Positions 13,266 through 26,846 of a DNA stretch of 64,000 nt are shown one piece after another. The stretch comes from an uncultured Methylomonas sp. (GTDB lineage Bacteria; Pseudomonadota; Gammaproteobacteria; Methylococcales; Methylomonadaceae). The translations under genes and the position numbers were made by a program. The notes below the pieces were generated by a model. That model searched no databases, was not told where the DNA came from, and saw only the letters and a list, made by a program, of their open reading frames with translations. The stretch is from contig CAKZJE010000089.1 of NCBI GenBank assembly GCA_936941155.1, positions 1-64,000 on the forward strand, in the 5' to 3' direction. Every line of letters starts with the position of its first letter. Positions within the stretch are counted from its first letter, which is position 1.

Positions 13266-14714
13266 ATGTCAACAAGTGCAGAAGAAATTAAAAACCTGAT
13301 TGGTCAGGAATACAAACAAGGCTTTATTACCGATGTTGATGCGGATACTTTCGCGGCGGGCTTGAATGAAGAAGTTATTGCTAAATTATCTATCGTCAAA
13401 AATGAACCTGAATGGATGCTAGAGTATCGCCTGAAAGCGTTTGCGCATTGGAAAACCATGACCGAACCGAACTGGCAACAGCTCAAAATTGATCCGATTG
13501 ATTATCAATCCATTAGTTATTATTCCGCACCGAAAGGTAACAAAGATAAGCCAAAAAGTTTGGATGAAATTGATCCGCAAATTTTGGAAGCGTATAAAAA
13601 ACTCGGTATTCCCTTAGATGAGCAAGAGCGGTTAGCGGGTGTGGCAGTAGATGCAGTTTTCGATAGCGTTTCTGTGGCGACTACTTTTAAAGGCAAATTA
13701 AAAGATGCGGGCGTGATTTTCTGTCCGATTTCTGAGGCGATTCGCGAGCATCCTGAATTGGTGAAACAATATCTCAGCTCCGTTGTGCCAGTGGGCGATA
13801 ACTTTTTCGCCGCACTGAATTCAGCCGTGTTTACTGATGGCTCATTTGTTTATATTCCCAAAGGTGTGCGTTGCCCGATGGAGTTATCAACCTATTTCAG
13901 AATCAATGCCAGCAATACCGGACAGTTTGAACGCACCTTGATTATTGCCGATGAAGGCTCGTATGTGTCTTATTTAGAAGGGTGCAGTGCGCCACAACGT
14001 GATGAAAATCAACTCCATGCGGCGGTTGTTGAATTGGTGACATTAAAAGATGCACAAATCAAATACTCTACCGTGCAAAATTGGTATCCAGGCGATAAAG
14101 ACGGCAAAGGTGGGATTTACAATTTCGTAACGAAACGTGCCGATTGTCGTGGTGAAAATTCTAAAGTGTCATGGACGCAAGTGGAAACTGGCTCGGCGAT
14201 AACGTGGAAATATCCAAGCTGCGTGTTGACAGGCGATAATTCGGTGGGTGAGTTTTATTCCGTTGCATTAACGAATAATCTGCAACAAGCCGACACCGGC
14301 ACAAAAATGATTCATATCGGCAAAAACACCAAAAGCACGATTGTGTCGAAAGGTATTTCCGCAGGTCGGGCGCAAAATACTTATCGCGGCTTGGTGAAAG
14401 TGTTGAAAAGTGCCGAAAATGCGCGGAATTATACCCAGTGCGATTCGTTGTTAGTCGGTGATAAATGCGGAGCGCATACGTTTCCTTATGTCGAAGTAAA
14501 GCAGCCCAGCGCACAGGTTGAGCATGAGGCAACCACTTCAAAAATCAGTGAAGATCAGTTGTTTTTCTGTCAGCAGCGCGGGCTTTCTGCCGAAGATGCG
14601 GTGTCAATGATTGTGAATGGTTTTTGTAAGCAGGTGTTTAAGGAATTGCCGATGGAGTTTGCAGTGGAAGCGCAGGCGTTGTTGGGGTTGAGTTTGGAAG
14701 GGTCGGTTGGGTAA
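13266..14714 (+). CDS. sufB: Fe-S cluster assembly scaffold SufB
   Basis: A 482-residue protein of standard length. It forms the SufBC2D scaffold on which [Fe-S] clusters are built. Seen in sequence: [73 protein letters not shown] and the C-terminal core [21 protein letters not shown] with [15 protein letters not shown]. The Cys in KCGAHT is the conserved SufB catalytic Cys. sufC would normally follow at once, but here it is about 8.4 kb downstream beyond accessory genes. Confidence 0.97.
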
Positions 14715-16069: not shown

Positions 16070-16543
16070 ATGCTAACTGTTACAGAAATTAAACAAGAAA
16101 TTAATCATCTCAGTATAGATGATAAGCTATTATTAATTGATGAGTTATGTAATTCAATGAATAAAGATTTATCTAATACTGAATCACAGGATAAAAAAAC
16201 AAACTTGTCATCTTTAGCAGCAGTAACAGGTGTGGGATGTTTTTTGGCAGGTGGTATGGCTTCTGGTGTTGCCACGTCTTCTTTAGTTATGACTTCTCCT
16301 GTCGTTGATTTAGTAGTCGCTATAGAAACAGCAATAAAAGATTTCAGAAAAAACCTAAAAAAATCTAAATTATCCACAATACAAAAAAGTGAAAATTGGA
16401 AAGAAACTAAACGCCAACCCACTATTACAAAAGGCGATAAAACCATTGACCCTACTGAATTTTTTGGAATGTGGAAAGAACAGCCTAAAAACTTAGCGGA
16501 TATTAGAAAAAAAGCATGGCATCGCTCAGGGTTTAATCAATGA
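16070..16543 (+). CDS. VapB-like antitoxin with an inserted hydrophobic segment
   Basis: A 157-residue protein. The first 35 residues (MLTVTEIKQEINHLSIDDKLLLIDELC) look like the N-terminus of addiction-module antitoxins. The last 35 (DPTEFFGMWKEQPKNLADIRKKAWHR) are the usual toxin-binding tail of antitoxins paired with PIN toxins. Between them is a Gly/Ala/Val-rich stretch (LAAVTGVGCFLAGGMASGVA, then SSLVMTSPVVDLVVAI) that antitoxins normally lack and that could be membrane-associated. AGGAG precedes the ATG. The next gene (PIN toxin) overlaps by four bases. Confidence 0.65.
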   Translation: MLTVTEIKQEINHLSIDDKLLLIDELCNSMNKDLSNTESQDKKTNLSSLAAVTGVGCFLAGGMASGVATSSLVMTSPVVDLVVAIETAIKDFRKNLKKSKLSTIQKSENWKETKRQPTITKGDKTIDPTEFFGMWKEQPKNLADIRKKAWHRSGFNQ

Positions 16544-16914
16544 TTTTGTGCGATACCAATGTTTTTATTCATGCTTTTAATGAAAACCAAACGACAATTG
16601 CACAACTCAATTTAATAGGCATCAAAAATATAGCTATTTCTGCAATTACGCTAATGGAACTTTATCAAGGCATGGGTAATAAATCAGAATTGGCACGAAT
16701 GAAAAAAGCAATGCGCTATTATGATGTGGTACAAATTGACAACGATATTTCAAAAATGGCGATTGAATTAATCGAAAAATTTAATTTAAGTCACGGCTTG
16801 CAAATTCCTGATGCGATTATTGGCGCAACTGCAATTATTTATGAAATTCCGCTTTATACTTATAACGTTAAAGATTTTAAATTCATGCCTAATATCAAGC
16901 TTTACCAAAATTAA
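16540..16914 (+). CDS. PIN-domain ribonuclease toxin (VapC-like)
   Basis: A 124-residue protein. The PIN acidic residues are present: DTN at residues 5-7, Glu in ITLMELYQG, Asp in IPDAIIGATA and Asp in NVKDFKF. VapC toxins cleave tRNA or rRNA when freed from their antitoxin. The start overlaps the antitoxin's stop (ATGA), so the pair is translationally coupled. Confidence 0.82.
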   Translation: MILCDTNVFIHAFNENQTTIAQLNLIGIKNIAISAITLMELYQGMGNKSELARMKKAMRYYDVVQIDNDISKMAIELIEKFNLSHGLQIPDAIIGATAIIYEIPLYTYNVKDFKFMPNIKLYQN

Positions 16915-17707: not shown

Positions 17708-18001
17708 ATGACTCAATTAGTTTTAAATATAGAAAATCAAGAACTAACAGATACATTGCAAGAGTTTTCTCTAAAACAAAAAAAAACAATGGAAGAAATC
17801 GCCATTGAAGCAATAAAAATTTTCATAGAAACTTCTAAGAAAAAATACAAGCCTATTTATGCCAAAAAAGATGTCACAAAAAATATGCAGGTCATTAAAA
17901 AAGATTTTGATGAAAACTTGTGTGATGACATAGCATTAACGCATATTCAAAACAGTGCAGATTATATTTATAACCTGAGAAGACAAAGCTCAATAGAATG
18001 A
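17708..18001 (+). CDS. Putative antitoxin of a PIN-toxin pair
   Basis: A 97-residue protein with GGAG before the ATG. The N-terminus (TQLVLNIENQELTDTLQEFS, then KKTMEEIAIEAIKIFIE) reads like a ribbon-helix-helix or ParD-like DNA-binding unit, followed by a basic linker and an acidic tail. The toxin gene overlaps by four bases. Confidence 0.6.
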   Translation: MTQLVLNIENQELTDTLQEFSLKQKKTMEEIAIEAIKIFIETSKKKYKPIYAKKDVTKNMQVIKKDFDENLCDDIALTHIQNSADYIYNLRRQSSIE

Positions 18002-18372
18002 TATTTTTAGATAGTTGTATTGTTATTGACTATATCAATGGCAAATTAGATATAGACGAATTGGCAAAGAAAGATTATTGCTTTAATTCTATTGTTGATA
18101 TGGAAGTTTGTGTAGGCGCACGGAATAAAAGAGAATTAAATACCATTAATAAAAAATTATCGAATTTCGCATCTGTCCGTGTAGACCAAGATATTTTGGA
18201 TTTAGCCTCTTTGCTGATTAACAATTATGCTTTATCCCATAATATGGCTATTTATGATGCAATTATTGCCGCAACTTGCATGGTATATGATTTACCTTTA
18301 TGCACTCACAATCAAAAAGATTTCAGATATTTAGATGAGTTAAGTTTATTAAGTCCACCCTTCTCTCTGTAA
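17998..18372 (+). CDS. PIN-domain ribonuclease toxin (VapC-like)
   Basis: A 124-residue protein. MIFLDSCIVIDYING carries the first PIN Asp, VDMEVCVG the Glu, IYDAIIAATC the third acidic residue and NQKDFRYLD the last. It is about the length of the PIN protein at 16540 but differs strongly in sequence, so this is a separate module rather than a duplicate. The ATGA overlap with the preceding gene indicates coupling. Confidence 0.82.
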   Translation: MIFLDSCIVIDYINGKLDIDELAKKDYCFNSIVDMEVCVGARNKRELNTINKKLSNFASVRVDQDILDLASLLINNYALSHNMAIYDAIIAATCMVYDLPLCTHNQKDFRYLDELSLLSPPFSL

Positions 18373-18537
18373 AAAATGCAAACACTTCATAAACATACCA
18401 ATAAAGAAGAATCAAATAACTTTCTACGCGGCGCATAAAAATAATTTTTTGCAGGTTTGAATTTTGAAAGCCATCAGAAAGCTTTAGCGGTTATTGTTTG
18501 TCAAATTATCCAAACGTTTCACCGATACATCAATTTT

Positions 18538-20187
18538 ATGAATTCTTCTAATCAGTCTTCGTTGCAATTAATTAAACAACTTATCATCTTGGAAAAAGAG
18601 GATGTCATTACGCTGATTGCCTATGGTTTAGGCATTGGTTTGATGTCGCTGGCAACGCCGATTGCAGTACAAACCTTAGTGAGTACAGTTGCATTTGGTG
18701 CTTTATTTCAACCTTTGATTGTTCTTTCTTTGATTCTGTTGGTGCTGGTCGGTTTTAGCAATGCTCTATCCGCGTTACAGTTTTATGTGATGGATATTTT
18801 GCAACGCCGCTTGTTTGTTAGAATTTTGGGTGAAACAGCTTCCCGCCTGCAAAAAGCCCATATTGAAAACAGCGATCATCATCATTTGCCCGAACTGGTC
18901 AACCGCTTTTTGGATGTGGTGAATCTGAATAAATCAGCCGCCACCATTTTGCTAGAAACCTTAGGCTATGTGCTGCAAACCTTTATCGGCATGATTTTAC
19001 TGGCGTTTTATCATCCGTTATTACTGGCTTTTGATTTCTTTTTGTTGATTTTTGTCAGTATTATTTTGTTCGGCTTAGGCAAAAACGGTATTAAAACCGC
19101 TATCGCCCAATCAAAAGCTAAATACGAAGTATTAGCCTGGCTGGAAAATATTGCCGCAACGCAAATCATTAACAAATCGGCAATGGCGCAAACTTTTTTA
19201 GAGCGCAAAACCGAACAGGTGTCGCAAAATTATCTCAATGCCTGCGACAAACATTTTACTATTTTGGCGCGGCAAAACACGGGCGGTCTGGTGTTGCACA
19301 CCGTGGCGAATACCTTGTTATTGGGCATGGGCGGCTGGATGGTGATTGAGCGGCAGCTTAGTTTAGGGCAACTTATCGCGGCGGAATTGATTGTCAGTAA
19401 TATGATGTATGGCTTGACTCGTTTGGGTAAAACCTTGAGCAGTTTCTATGCCCTGATTGTCAGCGGTGACAAGCTTGAGCATTTATTGCATATTCCACTG
19501 GAAACCGTGCAAGGACATCTGGTTGAATCAGAAAAAAATCCTTATCAGATTGAAATTAATAACGTTTTTTTACCGAAAAGTCCCAATTTAGATGTGCTAC
19601 AAGGCTTTAGCTTACGCTTATCTGCGGGTGAAAAACGGGTTTTGATTGGCGATGTGGAAAGAGGCAGTGTGCTGGATATGTTGTTCGGTTTGCGCCTGCC
19701 TAGTTCGGGTTATGTGCGAATTGAGAGCCATGATTTACGCGACTTAAATCTGCATACTTTGCGCGACAGCGTTTGTTTGGTGCGCGATGCGGAAATTCTG
19801 GAGGGCAGCGTCTTGGATAATTTACGTTTTAATCGTGAGATTGAGTTATCGCAAATTTGGGATAGTTTGGAAAAAGTCGGACTGCGTGAAACCGTTGCTG
19901 CACTCAGTCAAGGCTTAAATCACGTTTTATCGGCTAACGGCGCACCGCTGACACCGGAGCAGTGTTTGCGTTTGTCTTTGGCTCGTGCAATCGTGGCAAA
20001 ACCACGTCTGCTGTTGCTGGACGGTACATTGGATAAAATTGATGCGCGGGTATTACCCACTTTGTTGGATGATTTGTTTGATGAAAAAGCCCCTTGGACT
20101 TTGCTCATCACCAGTCAAGATCCTGAAATCATTGCCCATTGTAAACAGCCTATCCGTATTAAAAACGGCGTATTGGTTGAAAGTTAA
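18538..20187 (+). CDS. ABC exporter-type protein with a degenerate (pseudo-)ATPase domain
   Basis: 549 residues from MNSSNQSSLQ. A TTG at 18457 would add 27 residues that do not resemble the family. The N-terminal 300 residues form an exporter membrane domain of about six helices. The C-terminal nucleotide-binding domain is recognisable in outline but has lost its catalytic motifs: Walker A reads GDVERGSV (about 371-378, no GKS/T), the Q-loop Gln is Arg416, the signature is LTPEQ (471-475) instead of LSGGQ, Walker B is LLLLDG (no Glu after Asp495) and the switch His is Ser526. It forms an operon with HlyD-like and TolC-like genes. It has no peptidase domain. It probably cannot hydrolyse ATP. 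Confidence 0.85.
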   Translation: MNSSNQSSLQLIKQLIILEKEDVITLIAYGLGIGLMSLATPIAVQTLVSTVAFGALFQPLIVLSLILLVLVGFSNALSALQFYVMDILQRRLFVRILGETASRLQKAHIENSDHHHLPELVNRFLDVVNLNKSAATILLETLGYVLQTFIGMILLAFYHPLLLAFDFFLLIFVSIILFGLGKNGIKTAIAQSKAKYEVLAWLENIAATQIINKSAMAQTFLERKTEQVSQNYLNACDKHFTILARQNTGGLVLHTVANTLLLGMGGWMVIERQLSLGQLIAAELIVSNMMYGLTRLGKTLSSFYALIVSGDKLEHLLHIPLETVQGHLVESEKNPYQIEINNVFLPKSPNLDVLQGFSLRLSAGEKRVLIGDVERGSVLDMLFGLRLPSSGYVRIESHDLRDLNLHTLRDSVCLVRDAEILEGSVLDNLRFNREIELSQIWDSLEKVGLRETVAALSQGLNHVLSANGAPLTPEQCLRLSLARAIVAKPRLLLLDGTLDKIDARVLPTLLDDLFDEKAPWTLLITSQDPEIIAHCKQPIRIKNGVLVES

Positions 20188-20201
20188 GCTAGAGATTGAT
20201 T

Positions 20202-21602
20202 ATGCACAACACAAATTCTGATTCTGAGCCTCATTATTTTTCTGCATCAACCTTAATCACCTTACCTCATGCCGTGACTGCACCGTTAGCAGGCAAACTG
20301 GCACGGTCACTGGTGTGGCTGTTTTTGTTGTTGATGCTGTTTTTAACGCTGACTCCTTGGCAACAGAATATTCGTGGTGTCGGACGGGTAGTGGCTTATT
20401 TACCCGCCGAAAGGCAACAGGCGGTGAGTGCGCCAGTGGAAGGGCGGATTGCGCAATGGCTGGTGAAAGAAGGTACGGTGGTTAAGAAAGGACAAATCAT
20501 CGCCCGTTTGCTGGATAATGACCCGCTGATTCTGGAACGCTTGCAGAGTGAACAAACCGCGTTATTGGAGCGGCAAACAGCGGTCAATAGTCGGGTAGAA
20601 ACGTTTAAAGAACAATTACGGATGAGCGAAATGGCGCGTCCGCAAGCTTTATCCGCTGCGCAATCCCGGATTATGATGGCAAAACAGCGTGAACAAGCGG
20701 CTCGACAATCTTTATTAGCAAGTGAGGCTGCCGCAAAAACTGCAAAACTGAATTTAGCGCGACATAGCCAGTTGCAAAGCAAAGGTTTGTCATCCGATAG
20801 AACTTTAGAACTTAGTCAACTTGATGCCGCCCAGCGTCAGGCTGAGGTGATGCGCTCTCAAGCGGGTTTAGAATCGGCTAGCAGTGAAATTGCCGCGTTG
20901 AAAGCGGATTTTCAGAAATTAACCGCCGATACTGCCGCTTCGGTGCAAAAAGCCCGCGCTGAATTGAATAAAGCCATTGAAGATCAAAATTATGTGAAAG
21001 CGGATTTATTAAAATTGCAATCAAAGTTAGCGAGGCAACAAAATCTGACCATTGTTGCCCCGCGTGATGGCACAGTTTTACGCTTGTTAGTCAATCCGAA
21101 TGCTGAAATGGTTAAAGGTGGGCAAGCCATCGCAATTTTAATTCCACACACTAATGAACGCGCTGTGGAATTGTGGGTGGATGGCAACGATTTACCATTG
21201 GTGATTAACGGCAGTCCGGTGCGCTTGCAGTTTGAAGGTTATCCTGCCATTCAGTTTGGTGGCTGGCCGGAGTTTTCAATGGGTTCATTTGCTGGCAAAG
21301 TCGCATTAATTGATGCAACCGATGATGGCAAAGGTCATTTTCGCTTGCTTGTTACCCCTGATGCGAAAGATTTGCCTTGGCCATCGGAACGCTTTTTGCG
21401 CCAAGGTGTGCGCACTAATGGCTGGGTGTTGTTAGGGCGAGTGACTTTAGGTTACGAGCTATGGCGAATTTTTAACAACTTCCCGCCATTGGTGTTACCG
21501 GAACATTCGCTCGATAAAGAAGGCAAAGATAAAGACAAAGACGGCGGTTATGATGCCGATAAGAAAAAAGACGAGGATAAAAAGGGCGATGAAAAATACT
21601 AA
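20202..21602 (+). CDS. HlyD-family membrane fusion (periplasmic adaptor) protein
   Basis: 466 residues from the ATG at 20202. There is one N-terminal membrane anchor (LVWLFLLLMLFLTLTPW). Next comes the lipoyl/barrel-sandwich half VSAPVEGRIAQWLVKEGTVVKKGQIIARL, a long coiled coil (about residues 105-270), the second half LTIVAPRDGTVLRLLVNPNAEMVKGGQ, and a beta-barrel. The C-terminus is a highly charged Lys/Asp tail. It would link the inner-membrane ABC-type protein to the TolC-like channel. It follows the ABC gene by 14 bases, and the TolC-like gene overlaps its 3' end by 14 bases. Confidence 0.88.
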   Translation: MHNTNSDSEPHYFSASTLITLPHAVTAPLAGKLARSLVWLFLLLMLFLTLTPWQQNIRGVGRVVAYLPAERQQAVSAPVEGRIAQWLVKEGTVVKKGQIIARLLDNDPLILERLQSEQTALLERQTAVNSRVETFKEQLRMSEMARPQALSAAQSRIMMAKQREQAARQSLLASEAAAKTAKLNLARHSQLQSKGLSSDRTLELSQLDAAQRQAEVMRSQAGLESASSEIAALKADFQKLTADTAASVQKARAELNKAIEDQNYVKADLLKLQSKLARQQNLTIVAPRDGTVLRLLVNPNAEMVKGGQAIAILIPHTNERAVELWVDGNDLPLVINGSPVRLQFEGYPAIQFGGWPEFSMGSFAGKVALIDATDDGKGHFRLLVTPDAKDLPWPSERFLRQGVRTNGWVLLGRVTLGYELWRIFNNFPPLVLPEHSLDKEGKDKDKDGGYDADKKKDEDKKGDEKY

Positions 21603-23028
21603 ACTTATTTGTTTTTTTGCAATCACGCTTAACCTTATTTCGACAGTTTCGGCACAGGAAAATCAGCCTTTAACGCTGGAAAAAGTGGTCAATTCCGCAG
21701 TGCAGGCTTTTCCCACCTTATTAGCAAGTGAACAGCGCATTGCTGCCGCGCAAGGTGAATATCTGAGTGCAGAAGGCGGTTTTGATACGGTTTTAAAATC
21801 GCAAAATCGCTGGTCAATTGCCGGATTATATGAAAATCAAAATAATGATGTTAGCTTAGAACAGCCTACTGCGTTGGGTGGGACGACTTTTTTTGGTGGC
21901 TGGCGGCGTGGCGTGGGAGATTATCCTGTTTATGACGGCAAAAATCTCACCGCCAGTGATGGCGAAGTCAGAGTTGGGGTTAATATTCCCCTGTGGCGTA
22001 ACCGTGAGATTGACCGCCGCCGCGCCACTTTAAAACAAGCAGAACTAGGACAAAATATTAGCCAACATGACTATGACCAGATGCTGTTGGATGTGCAACG
22101 GCAAGCTTCACACCGTTATTGGGATTGGGTGTTGGCAGGACAACGTTTAAAAATTGCCGAACAATTGCTGTCCATTGCCGAACAACGCGATAACGGAGTC
22201 CGTCAACGGGCTGCGGCGGGCGATATTCCCAAAATTGAAATCATGGATAACCAACGCGCTATTATTGAACGTAAAGAGCGGCAAATTGCCGCGCTGCGTT
22301 TTTTGGAACAAACCGCGATTCAGCTTTCGTTATTCTGGCGTAGTGCCCAAGGTGAGCCGTTGCTGCCTCGAAAAGAGCAGTTGCCCGCTAATTTTCCCTT
22401 GCAAGAACCTAAACTTTTACCCGCTGCGGCGGCATTGGAAGCTGCCAAACAGGAACGCCCTGAGCTTAAACGTCTAGCCTTGCAAATTGAACAACTGCAA
22501 ACCGAGCAAGAACTTCAGCAAAATCAGGCAGCCCCTGGTATTGACCTGTCAGTTTCAGCCGCTAACGACATAGGTGACAATAGCAATAAAAAAGACAAAC
22601 CGAACCGCAATGAACTGTATGTGGGGGTAAATATTGACATCCCATTACAAAGACGGGTAGCAACAGGGCGGGCGCAAGTGGCAAATGCCAATAAACAACG
22701 TTTGACATGGGAACGTAATTTGCTGGAAAACCGCGTTGCCGCAGAAGTTAAAGATGTGTTATCGGCTTTAACCGCCAGTCAAAAACGCTTAACACTCAGT
22801 CAACAACAGCAACAAGTCGCACAACAATTAGAAGAAGGGGAACGTACCCGCTTTGCACTAGGAGACAGCACGTTGTTATTTGTCAATTTGCGCGAAATTG
22901 CCAATGGCGATGCCAAAATGCAGATAGCCGAAGCCGCCACGTCCCTTTTTAAAGCCTATGCGGATTATCAAGCGGCACTTGCTATTTTTTCAGCTAAAAA
23001 ACCGCTGCTGGATAAAATGTCAGAATAA
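21589..23028 (+). CDS. TolC-family outer membrane efflux protein
   Basis: About 479 residues from MKNTKLICFF, which gives a clean signal peptide ending VSAQ. The longer frame from 21550 lies inside the HlyD gene. The body shows the two-fold repeated helical hairpins of outer membrane efflux proteins (LTLEKVVNSAVQAFPTLLAS early, and RVATGRAQVANANKQRLTWERNLLENRVAAEV late). It completes a tripartite envelope system with the two upstream genes. No obvious protein substrate gene lies nearby. Confidence 0.85.
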   Translation: MKNTKLICFFAITLNLISTVSAQENQPLTLEKVVNSAVQAFPTLLASEQRIAAAQGEYLSAEGGFDTVLKSQNRWSIAGLYENQNNDVSLEQPTALGGTTFFGGWRRGVGDYPVYDGKNLTASDGEVRVGVNIPLWRNREIDRRRATLKQAELGQNISQHDYDQMLLDVQRQASHRYWDWVLAGQRLKIAEQLLSIAEQRDNGVRQRAAAGDIPKIEIMDNQRAIIERKERQIAALRFLEQTAIQLSLFWRSAQGEPLLPRKEQLPANFPLQEPKLLPAAAALEAAKQERPELKRLALQIEQLQTEQELQQNQAAPGIDLSVSAANDIGDNSNKKDKPNRNELYVGVNIDIPLQRRVATGRAQVANANKQRLTWERNLLENRVAAEVKDVLSALTASQKRLTLSQQQQQVAQQLEEGERTRFALGDSTLLFVNLREIANGDAKMQIAEAATSLFKAYADYQAALAIFSAKKPLLDKMSE

Positions 23029-23049: not shown

Positions 23050-23107
23050 GGAGTGCAAGCTTTGCTTGCTTGATAACTTATCGCGTGGCAAGCAAAGCTT
23101 GCACTCC
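23050..23107. repeat. Inverted repeat between the TolC-like gene and sufC
   Basis: The 20-base arm GGAGTGCAAGCTTTGCTTGC (23050-23069) recurs as an exact reverse complement at 23088-23107, with an 18-base centre. It marks the right junction of the accessory segment inside the suf operon. A related GGAGTGCAA palindrome is at 47279-47306. Confidence 0.9.
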
Positions 23108-23138: not shown

Positions 23139-23885
23139 ATGCTCTCTATTCAAAACTTAACGGTCAACGTTGAAAACAAACACATCCTGAAAGGCTTAAA
23201 TCTTGAAGTCAAAGCGGGAGAAATTCACGCCATTATGGGGCCAAACGGCGCGGGGAAAAGCACCCTCTCACACGTTCTGTCAGGCAAAGCTGGCTACACC
23301 GTCACAGGTGGCACAGTCAGTTATAACGGCAAAGACTTGCTCGACATGCCTGCCGAAATGCGTGCGCGTGAAGGCGTGTTTTTAGCCTTTCAATATCCGG
23401 TAGAAATTCCAGGGGTCAGCAATATTTACTTATTAAAAGCCGCGTTAAATGCGATTCGCAAACATCGCGGACTTTCAGAAGTAGATGCGATGGATTTTTT
23501 AACGATGGTAAAAGCCAAAGTAAAAGCCTTGGATATGGACGAAAAATTCCTTTATCGCGCAGTGAATGAAGGTTTTTCAGGCGGCGAAAAGAAACGTAAC
23601 GAAATTTTGCAAATGGCAATGCTCGAACCGCAACTGTGTATTTTGGATGAAACTGATTCCGGACTCGATATTGATGCGTTAAAAATTGTGGCTGAAGGCG
23701 TTAATTCACTGCGTTCTGAAAATCGCGCCTTTGTAATGATTACCCATTATCAACGCTTGCTCGATTACATTAAACCAGATTTCGTGCATGTATTGGCAGA
23801 CGGCAAAATTGTGAAATCCGGCGGCGCGGAACTGGCTTTGGAATTGGAAGAAAAAGGCTATAGCTGGTTGGAACAGGGAGTTTAA
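23139..23885 (+). CDS. sufC: Fe-S assembly ATPase SufC
   Basis: A 248-residue ABC-type ATPase of the SufBC2D complex. Walker A GPNGAGKST, a signature region GFSGGEKKRNEI and Walker B LCILDETDSGLD are all intact, in contrast with the exporter protein upstream. FLAFQYPVEIPGVSN is the usual SufC Q-loop region. It is the first suf gene after the 8.4-kb interruption and is followed two bases later by sufD. Expression from the sufB promoter is doubtful, so a local promoter may serve it. Confidence 0.97.
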   Translation: MLSIQNLTVNVENKHILKGLNLEVKAGEIHAIMGPNGAGKSTLSHVLSGKAGYTVTGGTVSYNGKDLLDMPAEMRAREGVFLAFQYPVEIPGVSNIYLLKAALNAIRKHRGLSEVDAMDFLTMVKAKVKALDMDEKFLYRAVNEGFSGGEKKRNEILQMAMLEPQLCILDETDSGLDIDALKIVAEGVNSLRSENRAFVMITHYQRLLDYIKPDFVHVLADGKIVKSGGAELALELEEKGYSWLEQGV

Positions 23886-23887
23886 TC

Positions 23888-25102
23888 ATGGCAAGCGAAA
23901 ATTTAATTGCTTTAAAATCGCAAGCCTTAGAAAAATTTAATGCGTTTGTTGCTAATTCCGTGCGGGAAGAAGAATGGCGATACACCAATGTTTCTGTTTT
24001 GGCAAAAAAGAAATTTCCTTTAGCGATCTCTGAATCAGAAATTAATCTTCATGTATTGGCAGACTGGAAACTCGAAAACTGTTATCACTTTGTTTTAGTG
24101 AATGGTTTTTTTAATCCTGAAGCTTCTTATTTACCAACAGCCGTTGATATTTGCGCTCTGTCTTTGGAATCAGAATCAGAAGAAGATGATGATTTTGAGT
24201 CTGTGCTTGAAGATGAAAAAAATGGCTTTTTGATTTTAAACTTTTTCCATTCCAATAATGGCTTATATTTAAACTTAGAAGAAAATGAAGTTTTAGATAA
24301 ACCTTTGCAAATTATTCACTTAACTACGCAAGAAGTGATGGTGAATACTTATCACACGGTGATTTTAGAAGAAAATGCCCAAGCGACTATTATTGAAACG
24401 TTTATTAATAATGGCAATCAAAGTTATTTATCCAATTCAGTATTAGAATGTTCACTTGAAAATAATGCTGAATTAACGTTATATAAATTACAAAATGAAT
24501 CCGAAAAAGCCTTTCATTTTGGTGGTGCGTATATTCAACAAGCTGAAAAATCAAAATTCACTCATCATAATTTTGCTTTAGGCGGTTTATTAGCGCGTTC
24601 TGAAATTCATTGTGATTTAGAAACAGGCGCAGAATGTGAATTAAACGGTTTGTATTTAGGAAAAAATCGTCAGCATTTGGATAATCATACCCGCATTAAT
24701 CACAATAAACCTAATGGGGTTAGCCGCGAATTTTATAAAGGGATTTTAAACGATAGAGCGCGAGGTGTATTTCAAGGGCGCGTGGTTGTTGCAAAAGATG
24801 CCCAAAAAACCGATTCGCAAATGAATAATCGCAATTTATTGTTATCAGCGGATGCAGAAATTGACACGAAACCGCAATTAGAAATTTATGCCGATGATGT
24901 GAAATGTGCGCACGGCATGACGATTGGACAATTGGAAGAAAAATCTATTTTCTATTTGCAATCACGCGGCATTGATGAAGAAACAGCAAAACATATTTTG
25001 ACTTTTGCTTTTGCGAATGAAATGGTGGATAAAATCAGTTTTGAACCGTTGAAAGTTTTGTTGCAAAAACAACTCTTAAATATATTACCGATTGAATTCT
25101 AA
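23888..25102 (+). CDS. sufD: Fe-S assembly protein SufD
   Basis: A 404-residue protein. It pairs with SufB in the scaffold. It shows REEEWRYTNVSVLAKKKF at the start and the C-terminal core RGVFQGRVVVAKDAQKTDSQ, NRNLLLSADAEIDTKPQLEIYADDVKCAHGMTIG with the conserved CAHG motif, then YLQSRGIDEETA. The N-terminal half contains an acidic insert (ESEEDDDFESVLEDEKN, about residues 98-114), which is more variable in this family. Confidence 0.95.
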   Translation: MASENLIALKSQALEKFNAFVANSVREEEWRYTNVSVLAKKKFPLAISESEINLHVLADWKLENCYHFVLVNGFFNPEASYLPTAVDICALSLESESEEDDDFESVLEDEKNGFLILNFFHSNNGLYLNLEENEVLDKPLQIIHLTTQEVMVNTYHTVILEENAQATIIETFINNGNQSYLSNSVLECSLENNAELTLYKLQNESEKAFHFGGAYIQQAEKSKFTHHNFALGGLLARSEIHCDLETGAECELNGLYLGKNRQHLDNHTRINHNKPNGVSREFYKGILNDRARGVFQGRVVVAKDAQKTDSQMNNRNLLLSADAEIDTKPQLEIYADDVKCAHGMTIGQLEEKSIFYLQSRGIDEETAKHILTFAFANEMVDKISFEPLKVLLQKQLLNILPIEF

Positions 25103-25117
25103 ATAAATTAATATTTT

Positions 25118-25594
25118 ATGCTAACAAAATTAGAATTATTCCAAGCTTTTGTTGCCCCTGCGATTTTTATTTCGGCATCTGGACTATTTGTTTTAACCCT
25201 GAATGCTCGGTTAATGGCAATGGTTTCACGTTTGCGCGTTTTTCATAAAGAAAAACATTTAGCGGCACAGGCAGGAAAAAAGCAGGAAGTTTTGACTCTG
25301 CAATCACAAATTGAATCTATCGAATTACGATCTGGAAAAATTAAAAACGCCTTTTTTTATAGTCTGCTTGGCACAATTGGCGTAATGATTACTTGTTTGC
25401 TATTAGGTTTAGGTCTTTATGTATATGAAGCCTTAACCATTGCGGTAATTTTATTTGTGATTTCGGTATTATCCATGTTAATTGGCATGGTGTTTTTTAT
25501 TTCAGAAGTATCTATTGCTTTAACTTCAGTTAAAGAAGAAGAAACATTGTATAACCTGATAGATTTAATTGACCTGACTAGCGGCGAACAATAA
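25118..25594 (+). CDS. DUF2721 membrane protein
   Basis: A 158-residue protein. ELFQAFVAPAIFISASGLFVLTLNARL is the DUF2721 start. Two further hydrophobic segments follow (FFYSLLGTIGVMITCLLLGLG and LTIAVILFVISVLSMLIGMVF), with a charged loop after the first. Function is unknown. It sits between sufD (15 bases) and sufS (31 bases), an unusual place. Confidence 0.8.
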   Translation: MLTKLELFQAFVAPAIFISASGLFVLTLNARLMAMVSRLRVFHKEKHLAAQAGKKQEVLTLQSQIESIELRSGKIKNAFFYSLLGTIGVMITCLLLGLGLYVYEALTIAVILFVISVLSMLIGMVFFISEVSIALTSVKEEETLYNLIDLIDLTSGEQ

Positions 25595-25625
25595 CCGCTC
25601 ACGATAATATGACTAATTTCAAAAT

Positions 25626-26846
25626 ATGAATTATCCAATAGAGAAAATCCGCGCCGATTTCCCAATTTTAGAACAAAAAATTCGCAATAAACCGTTAATT
25701 TATTTTGATAACGCCGCCAGTTGCCAAAAACCAAATCAGGTGATTGATTGTATCAGTAATTTTTATCGGCAAGATTATGCGAATGTGCATCGCGGTGTGC
25801 ATACTTTAAGCCAACGCGCGAGTGATAAATATGAAGCAGTGCGCGAAAAGCTGAAAAGTTTCATTAATGCCGCTAACGAAAAAGAAATTGTGTTTGTGCG
25901 TGGTGCAACCGAGGCAATTAATTTGGTTGCGCAAACTTACGGGCGGGCGAATATTAAAGTCGGTGATGAAATTTTAATCACCGCAATGGAGCATCACGCG
26001 AATATTGTGCCTTGGCAAATGTTGTGTCAACAAAATGGTGCGGTTTTGAAAGTTGCGCCGATGGATTTGAATGGCGAGTTGATTTATGCCGAATTTGAAA
26101 AATTATTAACCGATAAAACCAAATTAGTTGCAGTCACGCACATGTCTAACGCGCTGGGTTCGGTTAATCCAGTGAAGAAAATGATTGCCGCCGCTCATGC
26201 GAAAAACATTCCGGTGTTAGTTGATGGCGCACAGGCGATTCCGCATACCAAAGTGGATGTGCAAGATTTGGATTGTGATTTTTATGTGTTTTCAGGGCAT
26301 AAACTTTACGCGCCGTCAGGCATTGGTGCGTTGTATGGTAAACAGGCGTTTTTAGAAGCCATGCCTCCGTATCATGGTGGTGGCGATATGATTCGTACTG
26401 TGACGTTTGAAAAATCCACTTACGCGGGCTTGCCGCATAAATTTGAGGCAGGAACTCCGAGTATTGCTGATACGGTCGGTTTTGGTGCGGCGATTGATTA
26501 TATTAATGCGATTGGGATTGAGGCGATTGCCGCGCATGAGCATGAGTTATTAGTGTATGCGACTGAAAAAGCCATGCAAATTAAAGGCTTGAATATTATC
26601 GGGCAAGCGGCTGAAAAAGGCGGAATTTTGTCATTTACGCTCGACCGCATTCATCCGCACGATATTGGCACGATGTTGGATAGTCAAGGGATTGCGATTC
26701 GTGCCGGACATCATTGTGCAATGCCGGTGATGGATTTTTTTAACGTTCCAGCTACTGCGCGGGTTTCGTTTGGCATGTACAACACTAAAGCAGAAGTGGA
26801 TGTGTTGATATTGGCTGTGACGGAATTGATAAAAATTTTTGGCTAG
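25626..26846 (+). CDS. sufS: Cysteine desulfurase SufS
   Basis: A 406-residue group II desulfurase. It takes sulfur from Cys for cluster assembly, using PLP. Seen: YFDNAASCQKP, VHRGVHTLSQRA, FVRGATEAINLVA, the PLP Lys in FSGHKLYAPSGIGALYG, and the catalytic Cys in RAGHHCAMPVM. The short Cys loop and RAGHHC mark SufS rather than IscS. No SufE or SufU gene is seen in the window. Confidence 0.96.
   Translation: MNYPIEKIRADFPILEQKIRNKPLIYFDNAASCQKPNQVIDCISNFYRQDYANVHRGVHTLSQRASDKYEAVREKLKSFINAANEKEIVFVRGATEAINLVAQTYGRANIKVGDEILITAMEHHANIVPWQMLCQQNGAVLKVAPMDLNGELIYAEFEKLLTDKTKLVAVTHMSNALGSVNPVKKMIAAAHAKNIPVLVDGAQAIPHTKVDVQDLDCDFYVFSGHKLYAPSGIGALYGKQAFLEAMPPYHGGGDMIRTVTFEKSTYAGLPHKFEAGTPSIADTVGFGAAIDYINAIGIEAIAAHEHELLVYATEKAMQIKGLNIIGQAAEKGGILSFTLDRIHPHDIGTMLDSQGIAIRAGHHCAMPVMDFFNVPATARVSFGMYNTKAEVDVLILAVTELIKIFG

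Follow-up and report, generated by a model that had tools for sequence, protein, structure and literature searches.

In the textbook view, tripartite ABC systems run on ATP. Among the described systems, the trio of genes examined here most resembles the T1SS of HlyB, PrtD, LssB and LapB, which share with it a Type IV ABC-exporter fold, an ABC-HlyD-TolC gene trio, the order of membrane domain (TMD) and nucleotide-binding domain (NBD), a HlyD-type adaptor with an RLS or RLT motif, a TolC-type duct and, in their ABC proteins, the TMD segment LSLGQLIAxE. In ABC proteins each nucleotide site is formed by the Walker A and Walker B motifs of one NBD and the signature of the opposite NBD, and the NBDs are, as a rule, conserved better than any other part (PMC7756269). 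Loss of part of the NBD motifs is also familiar, from Pdr5, TAP1/2, TmrAB and TM287/288. For instance, NBD1 of Pdr5 lacks the Walker A Lys, the Glu and the His, while NBD2 carries LNVEQ for LSGGQ (PMC7756269). Degenerate-site heterodimers are common (PMC7756269, PMC8277102), and the second of these sources, a Chem. Rev. survey, mentions degeneracy, in the portion covered here, only as a one-site condition.

The present locus lies in a 64,000-nucleotide stretch of DNA from an uncultured Methylomonas sp. (GCA_936941155.1, contig CAKZJE010000089.1, positions 1 to 64,000), referred to here as the window; all of its features discussed below are on the plus strand. The ABC gene (18538..20187) encodes 549 residues in a frame that is intact from ATG to stop, as a preliminary description of this DNA had claimed, with an alternative in-frame TTG start possible at 18457. 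Its product comprises a TMD (approximately residues 1-325) and an NBD (approximately residues 336-549), and matches Pfam ABC_membrane (3.4e-10) and ABC_tran (3.2e-08) over cut-off; alignment and Foldseek likewise place it with the ABC exporters. There follow a HlyD/EmrA-like periplasmic adaptor of 468 residues (20196..21602; TTG at 20196, ATG alternative at 20202; HlyD_3, 9.9e-15), related in the PDB to EmrA (7e-15) and to the chain of hemolysin complex 8dck that is a HlyD-family adaptor, and a TolC-family outer-membrane factor of 479 residues with an ATG start and a signal peptide-like beginning (21589..23028; OEP, 1.4e-33). The TolC-like frame overlaps the HlyD-like frame by 14 nt, and the ABC-to-HlyD gap is 8-14 nt, depending on the start; coordinates and Pfam matches thus agree with the earlier remark that these partners overlap or closely follow the ABC gene. 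The adaptor contains the pattern RxxxLxxxxxxS (RHSQLQSKGLSS, 20760..20795), the RLS motif defined at the adaptor tip as needed for TolC docking (PMC3391258), and 53 of 59 adaptors retain it. Where the locus parts from T1SS is in its degraded catalytic motifs, a TMD more conserved than the NBD, the absence of a nearby RTX-type substrate gene and the linkage to bicarbonate genes in relatives. Scores against T1SS subfamily models also fall under cut-off (TIGR03375, 120/693 bits; TIGR01846, 115/726; TIGR01842, 113/510).

The trio sits between sufB and sufC, downstream of PIN-domain genes. The suf operon of the window appears split: sufB (13266-14714) and the sufC side (23139-26846) are about 8.4 kb apart, and the interval holds two PIN-domain genes, other small genes and the trio. 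The PIN-domain genes (16540-16914 and 17998-18372, by Pfam) each have a small ORF upstream and look like VapBC-type toxin-antitoxin pairs. Between the tolC-like gene and sufC, positions 23050-23107 form a perfect inverted repeat (20-nt arms, 18-nt spacer), which may be a mobile palindrome or an element like a terminator. In the nearest relative of the window ABC protein (L070, 75% identity), sufB and sufC clusters likewise flank the trio, which is placed as in the window but among other filler genes.

The NBD motifs were read by alignment with canonical ABC exporters of the same genome, and then with orthologues. Walker A, GxxGxGKS, has become IGDVERGS, two residues shorter and with Arg in the Lys column (IGDVERGSVLD, residues 370-380; 19645..19677). 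The Q-loop (CLVRDAEIL, 19774..19800) has Arg for Gln within LVRD, of which LVR is kept across orthologues, and the signature is LTPEQ for LSGGQ (19948..19962), resembling the LNVEQ of Pdr5 NBD2. In the Walker B/D-loop segment (LLLLDGTLD, 20008..20034) the Asp, D495, is retained and the catalytic Glu is replaced by Gly (LLLLDG), while in the switch region (TSQDP, 20110..20124) the His is replaced by Gln (TSQD). All five losses asserted in the preliminary description therefore stand by alignment, with the refinements that the Walker B Asp is kept and that the family varies at the switch His, with SH in many orthologues; because of this variability, the switch His is the weakest of the five. That functional motifs had simply been overlooked was rejected, since alignment with the genome's own canonical exporters shows degeneration, and chance as the source of the loss is ruled out because the degenerate pattern recurs in every orthologue. 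Judged by its motifs, the window protein is very probably a pseudo-ATPase.

Degeneracy of this kind extends well beyond the window. Within the window's taxonomic family, 68 of the 201 sampled genomes carry the trio, and both other sampled members of the genus (n=2) lack it. It occurs also in other Gammaproteobacteria, Alphaproteobacteria and Bacteroidota; ABC, HlyD and TolC genes co-occur in essentially all loci having enough flank. Fourteen relatives in named genomes come from Methylomonas, Methylovulum, other Methylococcaceae/Methylococcales, Methylocucumis, Candidatus Nitrotoga and unclassified proteobacteria. In the short form (about 550 residues, 50-75% identity), every aligned member is degenerate at the same places. 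A long form (about 700 residues, 37-41% identity) has some 150 additional N-terminal residues, perhaps C39-like, at the position of HlyB's C39-like domain; it retains GKS/GKT in Walker A, with which ATP binding could still be possible, and lacks the Q-loop Gln, the signature GG and the switch His, with the Glu mostly gone and kept in a few. Relatives at about 25-34% identity, from other Gammaproteobacteria, Sphingomonadaceae plasmids and plasmids of the Bacteroidota Persicobacter, Aureibacter and Riemerella, are degenerate too. Across the whole range of about 25-41% identity the signature and Q-loop Gln are missing, and the Glu and His nearly always so; the least degraded relative among them (L108) still has GKT and a switch His, and its signature is absent. 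A full catalytic motif set occurs in none of the relatives aligned, and the existence of homologues with intact motifs was rejected accordingly. The search suggested earlier, for homologues with the same degenerate motifs beside HlyD and TolC genes, thus found them family-wide and beyond. On a TMD-only tree the Walker A Lys state changes four times, by a quick method with long outgroup branches and a weak root.

A conventional T1SS or efflux pump, with an unusual NBD that still hydrolyzes ATP, would be consistent with the preserved NBD fold, the Walker B Asp, the GKS/GKT of long-form relatives and the Glu of a few among them. It is nonetheless highly improbable given that the short form lacks Lys, Gln, signature GG and Glu all together, that no RTX-type substrate gene lies in the vicinity, and that the genome has a separate canonical PrtD-like T1SS ABC (L002, so named from its sequence), a type assigned to the S-layer in M. 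album BG8 (PMC13274458). A role for the trio itself as an S-layer/RTX exporter was rejected on the same absence of RTX genes nearby and presence of a separate PrtD-like gene; among trio-locus ORFs, none has at least three GGxGxD repeats, and two have two.

Selection has maintained the NBD despite its losses. In close pairs (dS < 0.9), dN/dS is 0.07-0.31 for the NBD and 0.03-0.20 for the TMD: the NBD is under purifying selection, though constrained less than the TMD, and is not free to decay, which answers the check that the preliminary description had proposed. Recent decay of the window copy was rejected on the identical motif losses in all orthologues together with this selection. Alignment and dN/dS also support the earlier claim that a full-length, inactive NBD is retained in a tripartite operon. 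Mean identity is 70% in the TMD and 51% in the NBD, the TMD being higher in 171 of 171 short-form pairs, whereas MsbA from the same genomes shows the opposite trend (64% and 74%, respectively). In essence, the family reverses the rule that NBDs are most conserved, and constraint has shifted to the membrane domain. Across 68 family members, residues conserved in 85% or more fall mainly in the TMD, examples being R90, R95, K132, Q147, Y158, H159, K195, W201, Q246, G277, Q278, E283 and Y304. AlphaFold models the NBD confidently (pLDDT about 80-92) and the TMD poorly, from a 13-sequence alignment, and Foldseek matches ABC exporters, including HlyB at a TMq of 0.57-0.60. Calling the membrane part that of an ordinary exporter understated a domain that is the best conserved part of the protein.

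Known degenerate-site exporters suggest one source of energy, which the preliminary description had also raised: the pseudo-ABC protein may pair with an unlinked active ABC subunit that powers export through HlyD and TolC, as in TAP1/2, TmrAB or TM287/288. Several canonical ABC exporters are encoded in the genome, and the frequency of degenerate-site heterodimers noted above is in keeping with such pairing. The known cases, however, keep part of a canonical composite site in each NBD, and Pdr5-type proteins split their losses such that one canonical site survives, whereas the trio ABC protein loses Walker A, the Glu and the signature in the same NBD, leaving neither site canonical. Because Walker A and the signature are both lost here, an intact partner could not restore a canonical ATP site. 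Moreover, neither a second ABC exporter gene nor a linked active ABC partner gene recurs in trio neighborhoods. Partnership with HlyD and TolC is a further difference of the trio ABC protein from degenerate-site exporters. The joint loss of Walker A and signature disfavors the heterodimer, which we regard as quite improbable.

We instead envisage that the operon product would be a T1SS-like complex running from the inner membrane through the periplasm to the outer membrane, in which an ABC dimer, to judge from its motifs, would not hydrolyze ATP. The work would be done by the membrane domain, and the NBD may persist in folded form as a structural or regulatory part, keeping the dimer together. 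The RLS motif and fold suggest that the adaptor would dock normally on the exit duct formed by the TolC-like protein. With no canonical composite ATP site available, the complex may be an ATP-independent conduit or draw on another gradient; transport, if any, would be passive, gated or driven by such a gradient through the conserved membrane domain. Of the earlier suggestions, a structural role or another energy source does fit the finding that constraint now lies mainly on the TMD. A complex without transport can also be imagined, a nucleotide-free regulatory or scaffolding assembly that tethers both membranes or senses envelope state, such as pH, under NhaR-like control. The dead NBD would suit it, as would the NhaR-type LysR gene that many relatives carry divergent to the locus, but the TMD is highly conserved throughout, as is the motif for docking on the exit duct; this suggests that passage is still in use, and we consider a pure scaffold unlikely. 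The LysR neighbor was rejected as one conserved regulator: NhaR-type genes (for example that of L013, 223.5 bits against NF008284, cut-off 219) are confined to the window's family, L022 and the f140 relatives, and LysR neighbors in other distant loci are OxyR- or LrhA-like.

What might pass through an ATP-independent complex is suggested by its neighbors in relatives, where Pfam verified PEP carboxylase (PEPC, PF00311), beta-carbonic anhydrase (beta-CA, PF00484) and DabA (PF10070) with DabB. Linkage, defined as location within 10 kb, was scored for 80 trios in 78 trio-bearing genomes with genome-wide gene counts: PEPC lies near 24/80 trios (0.25 expected), beta-CA near 8/80 (0.75 expected), DabA near 2/80 (0.48 expected, P=0.08) and a small membrane protein family near 29/80 (0.75 expected), the expected values being upper bounds derived from a single mean genome size (4.1 Mb) with contig breaks ignored, and the counts not being phylogenetically independent because the NhaR-PEPC-trio layout, common to short and long forms, is probably a single ancestral locus. 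The DabA linkage is weak on its own. Other arrangements look like separate events. DabB-DabA lies immediately upstream of the trio in L013, an operon order repeated on the Sphingobium plasmid pHAL16 (L137), and DabA is divergent to the trio in L040, these three loci being unrelated; beta-CA directly precedes the trio in G340/G410 and G459, lies on its downstream side in G386/G356 and at the second G459 copy, and stands together with PEPC at the trio in G374; and in L103 a biotin carboxylase and PYC_OADA, a two-subunit pyruvate carboxylase, occupy the position that PEPC holds in its relatives. A DUF6671 protein adjoins DabA-DabB in L013 (6580-7443) and L040 (1985-2821), and in L093 is also near the trio.

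No inorganic-carbon genes lie next to the window's own trio, and many distant trio loci have no carbon genes among their neighbors. In the window's genome, beta-CA is on contig C34, where its neighbors are a SulP transporter and one of the small membrane protein copies, while DabA (C83) and a divergent PEPC (C109) are both off the window's contig.

The small membrane protein family (alignment A2; about 145 residues, motif HxLHxxxExxExxxEHxLExxFxLSxxQAExIVFW) has no match in Pfam and, across the window's taxonomic family, 1-8 members per genome. Those in the window's own genome (G000) are at C34:16374-16760 and at C89:89040-89414, the latter near 89 kb on the window's contig, by pyruvate carboxylase subunit B. 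The family is strongly linked to beta-carbonic anhydrase, including ORFs of SulP-CA length; away from the trio, its copies are beside beta-CA in 20/120 cases against 0.65 expected. It is a candidate new inorganic-carbon membrane protein, and was rejected as an obligate fourth subunit, being multi-copy and absent from distant trio genomes.

Judged from gene linkage only, a tie between the trio and inorganic carbon in the methanotroph clade is mildly favored. In methanotrophs and relatives the job of the complex is most likely tied to the supply or balance of dissolved inorganic carbon (bicarbonate/CO2) for anaplerotic carboxylases, with bicarbonate or CO2 as the putative species handled. Oxaloacetate is the product of both PEPC and pyruvate carboxylase, and L077 has a CitMHS-family carrier after TolC; the trio might on this evidence export a C4-dicarboxylate- or citrate-like anaplerosis metabolite, or another organic product, rather than bicarbonate. 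Yet beta-CA and DabAB indicate bicarbonate itself, dicarboxylate genes do not recur at trio loci, and metabolite export is accordingly unlikely.

CFTR (ABCC7) is an ABC exporter turned anion channel through which bicarbonate permeates. It serves as a descriptive analogy for the conduit; unlike the trio ABC protein, CFTR retains one ATP site, is gated by ATP, and has no adaptor or outer-membrane duct. DabAB and beta-carbonic anhydrases adjoin the trio in several unrelated loci, but are separate proteins, and the paper on DAB (PMC13144422) mentions neither HlyD nor the outer membrane, placing the trio outside any described DAB system. Overall, we tentatively put forward the reading that the trio forms an envelope complex of ancient origin, derived from a T1SS, independent of ATP and, in methanotrophs, tied to inorganic carbon. 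Its boldest form is speculative and rather unlikely: an ABC exporter would have become an ATP-independent trans-envelope conduit for bicarbonate/CO2-related species between cytoplasm and outside, in at least two phyla, and would work together with carbonic anhydrase, DabAB and anaplerotic carboxylases.

A search of the open-access literature found no description of a HlyD/TolC-linked ABC family without catalytic motifs, in agreement with the earlier statement that no characterized system with this trio is known. Some caution is warranted, as annotation pipelines label such proteins "ABC transporter ATP-binding protein." A widespread family that retains the architecture without its motor would show that a complex spanning the envelope can use the ABC-exporter fold for a channel or scaffold. 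Should the bicarbonate link hold, the trio would be an unrecognized envelope component of inorganic-carbon handling in methanotrophs and other bacteria, in which CO2/bicarbonate balance bears on carbon yield.
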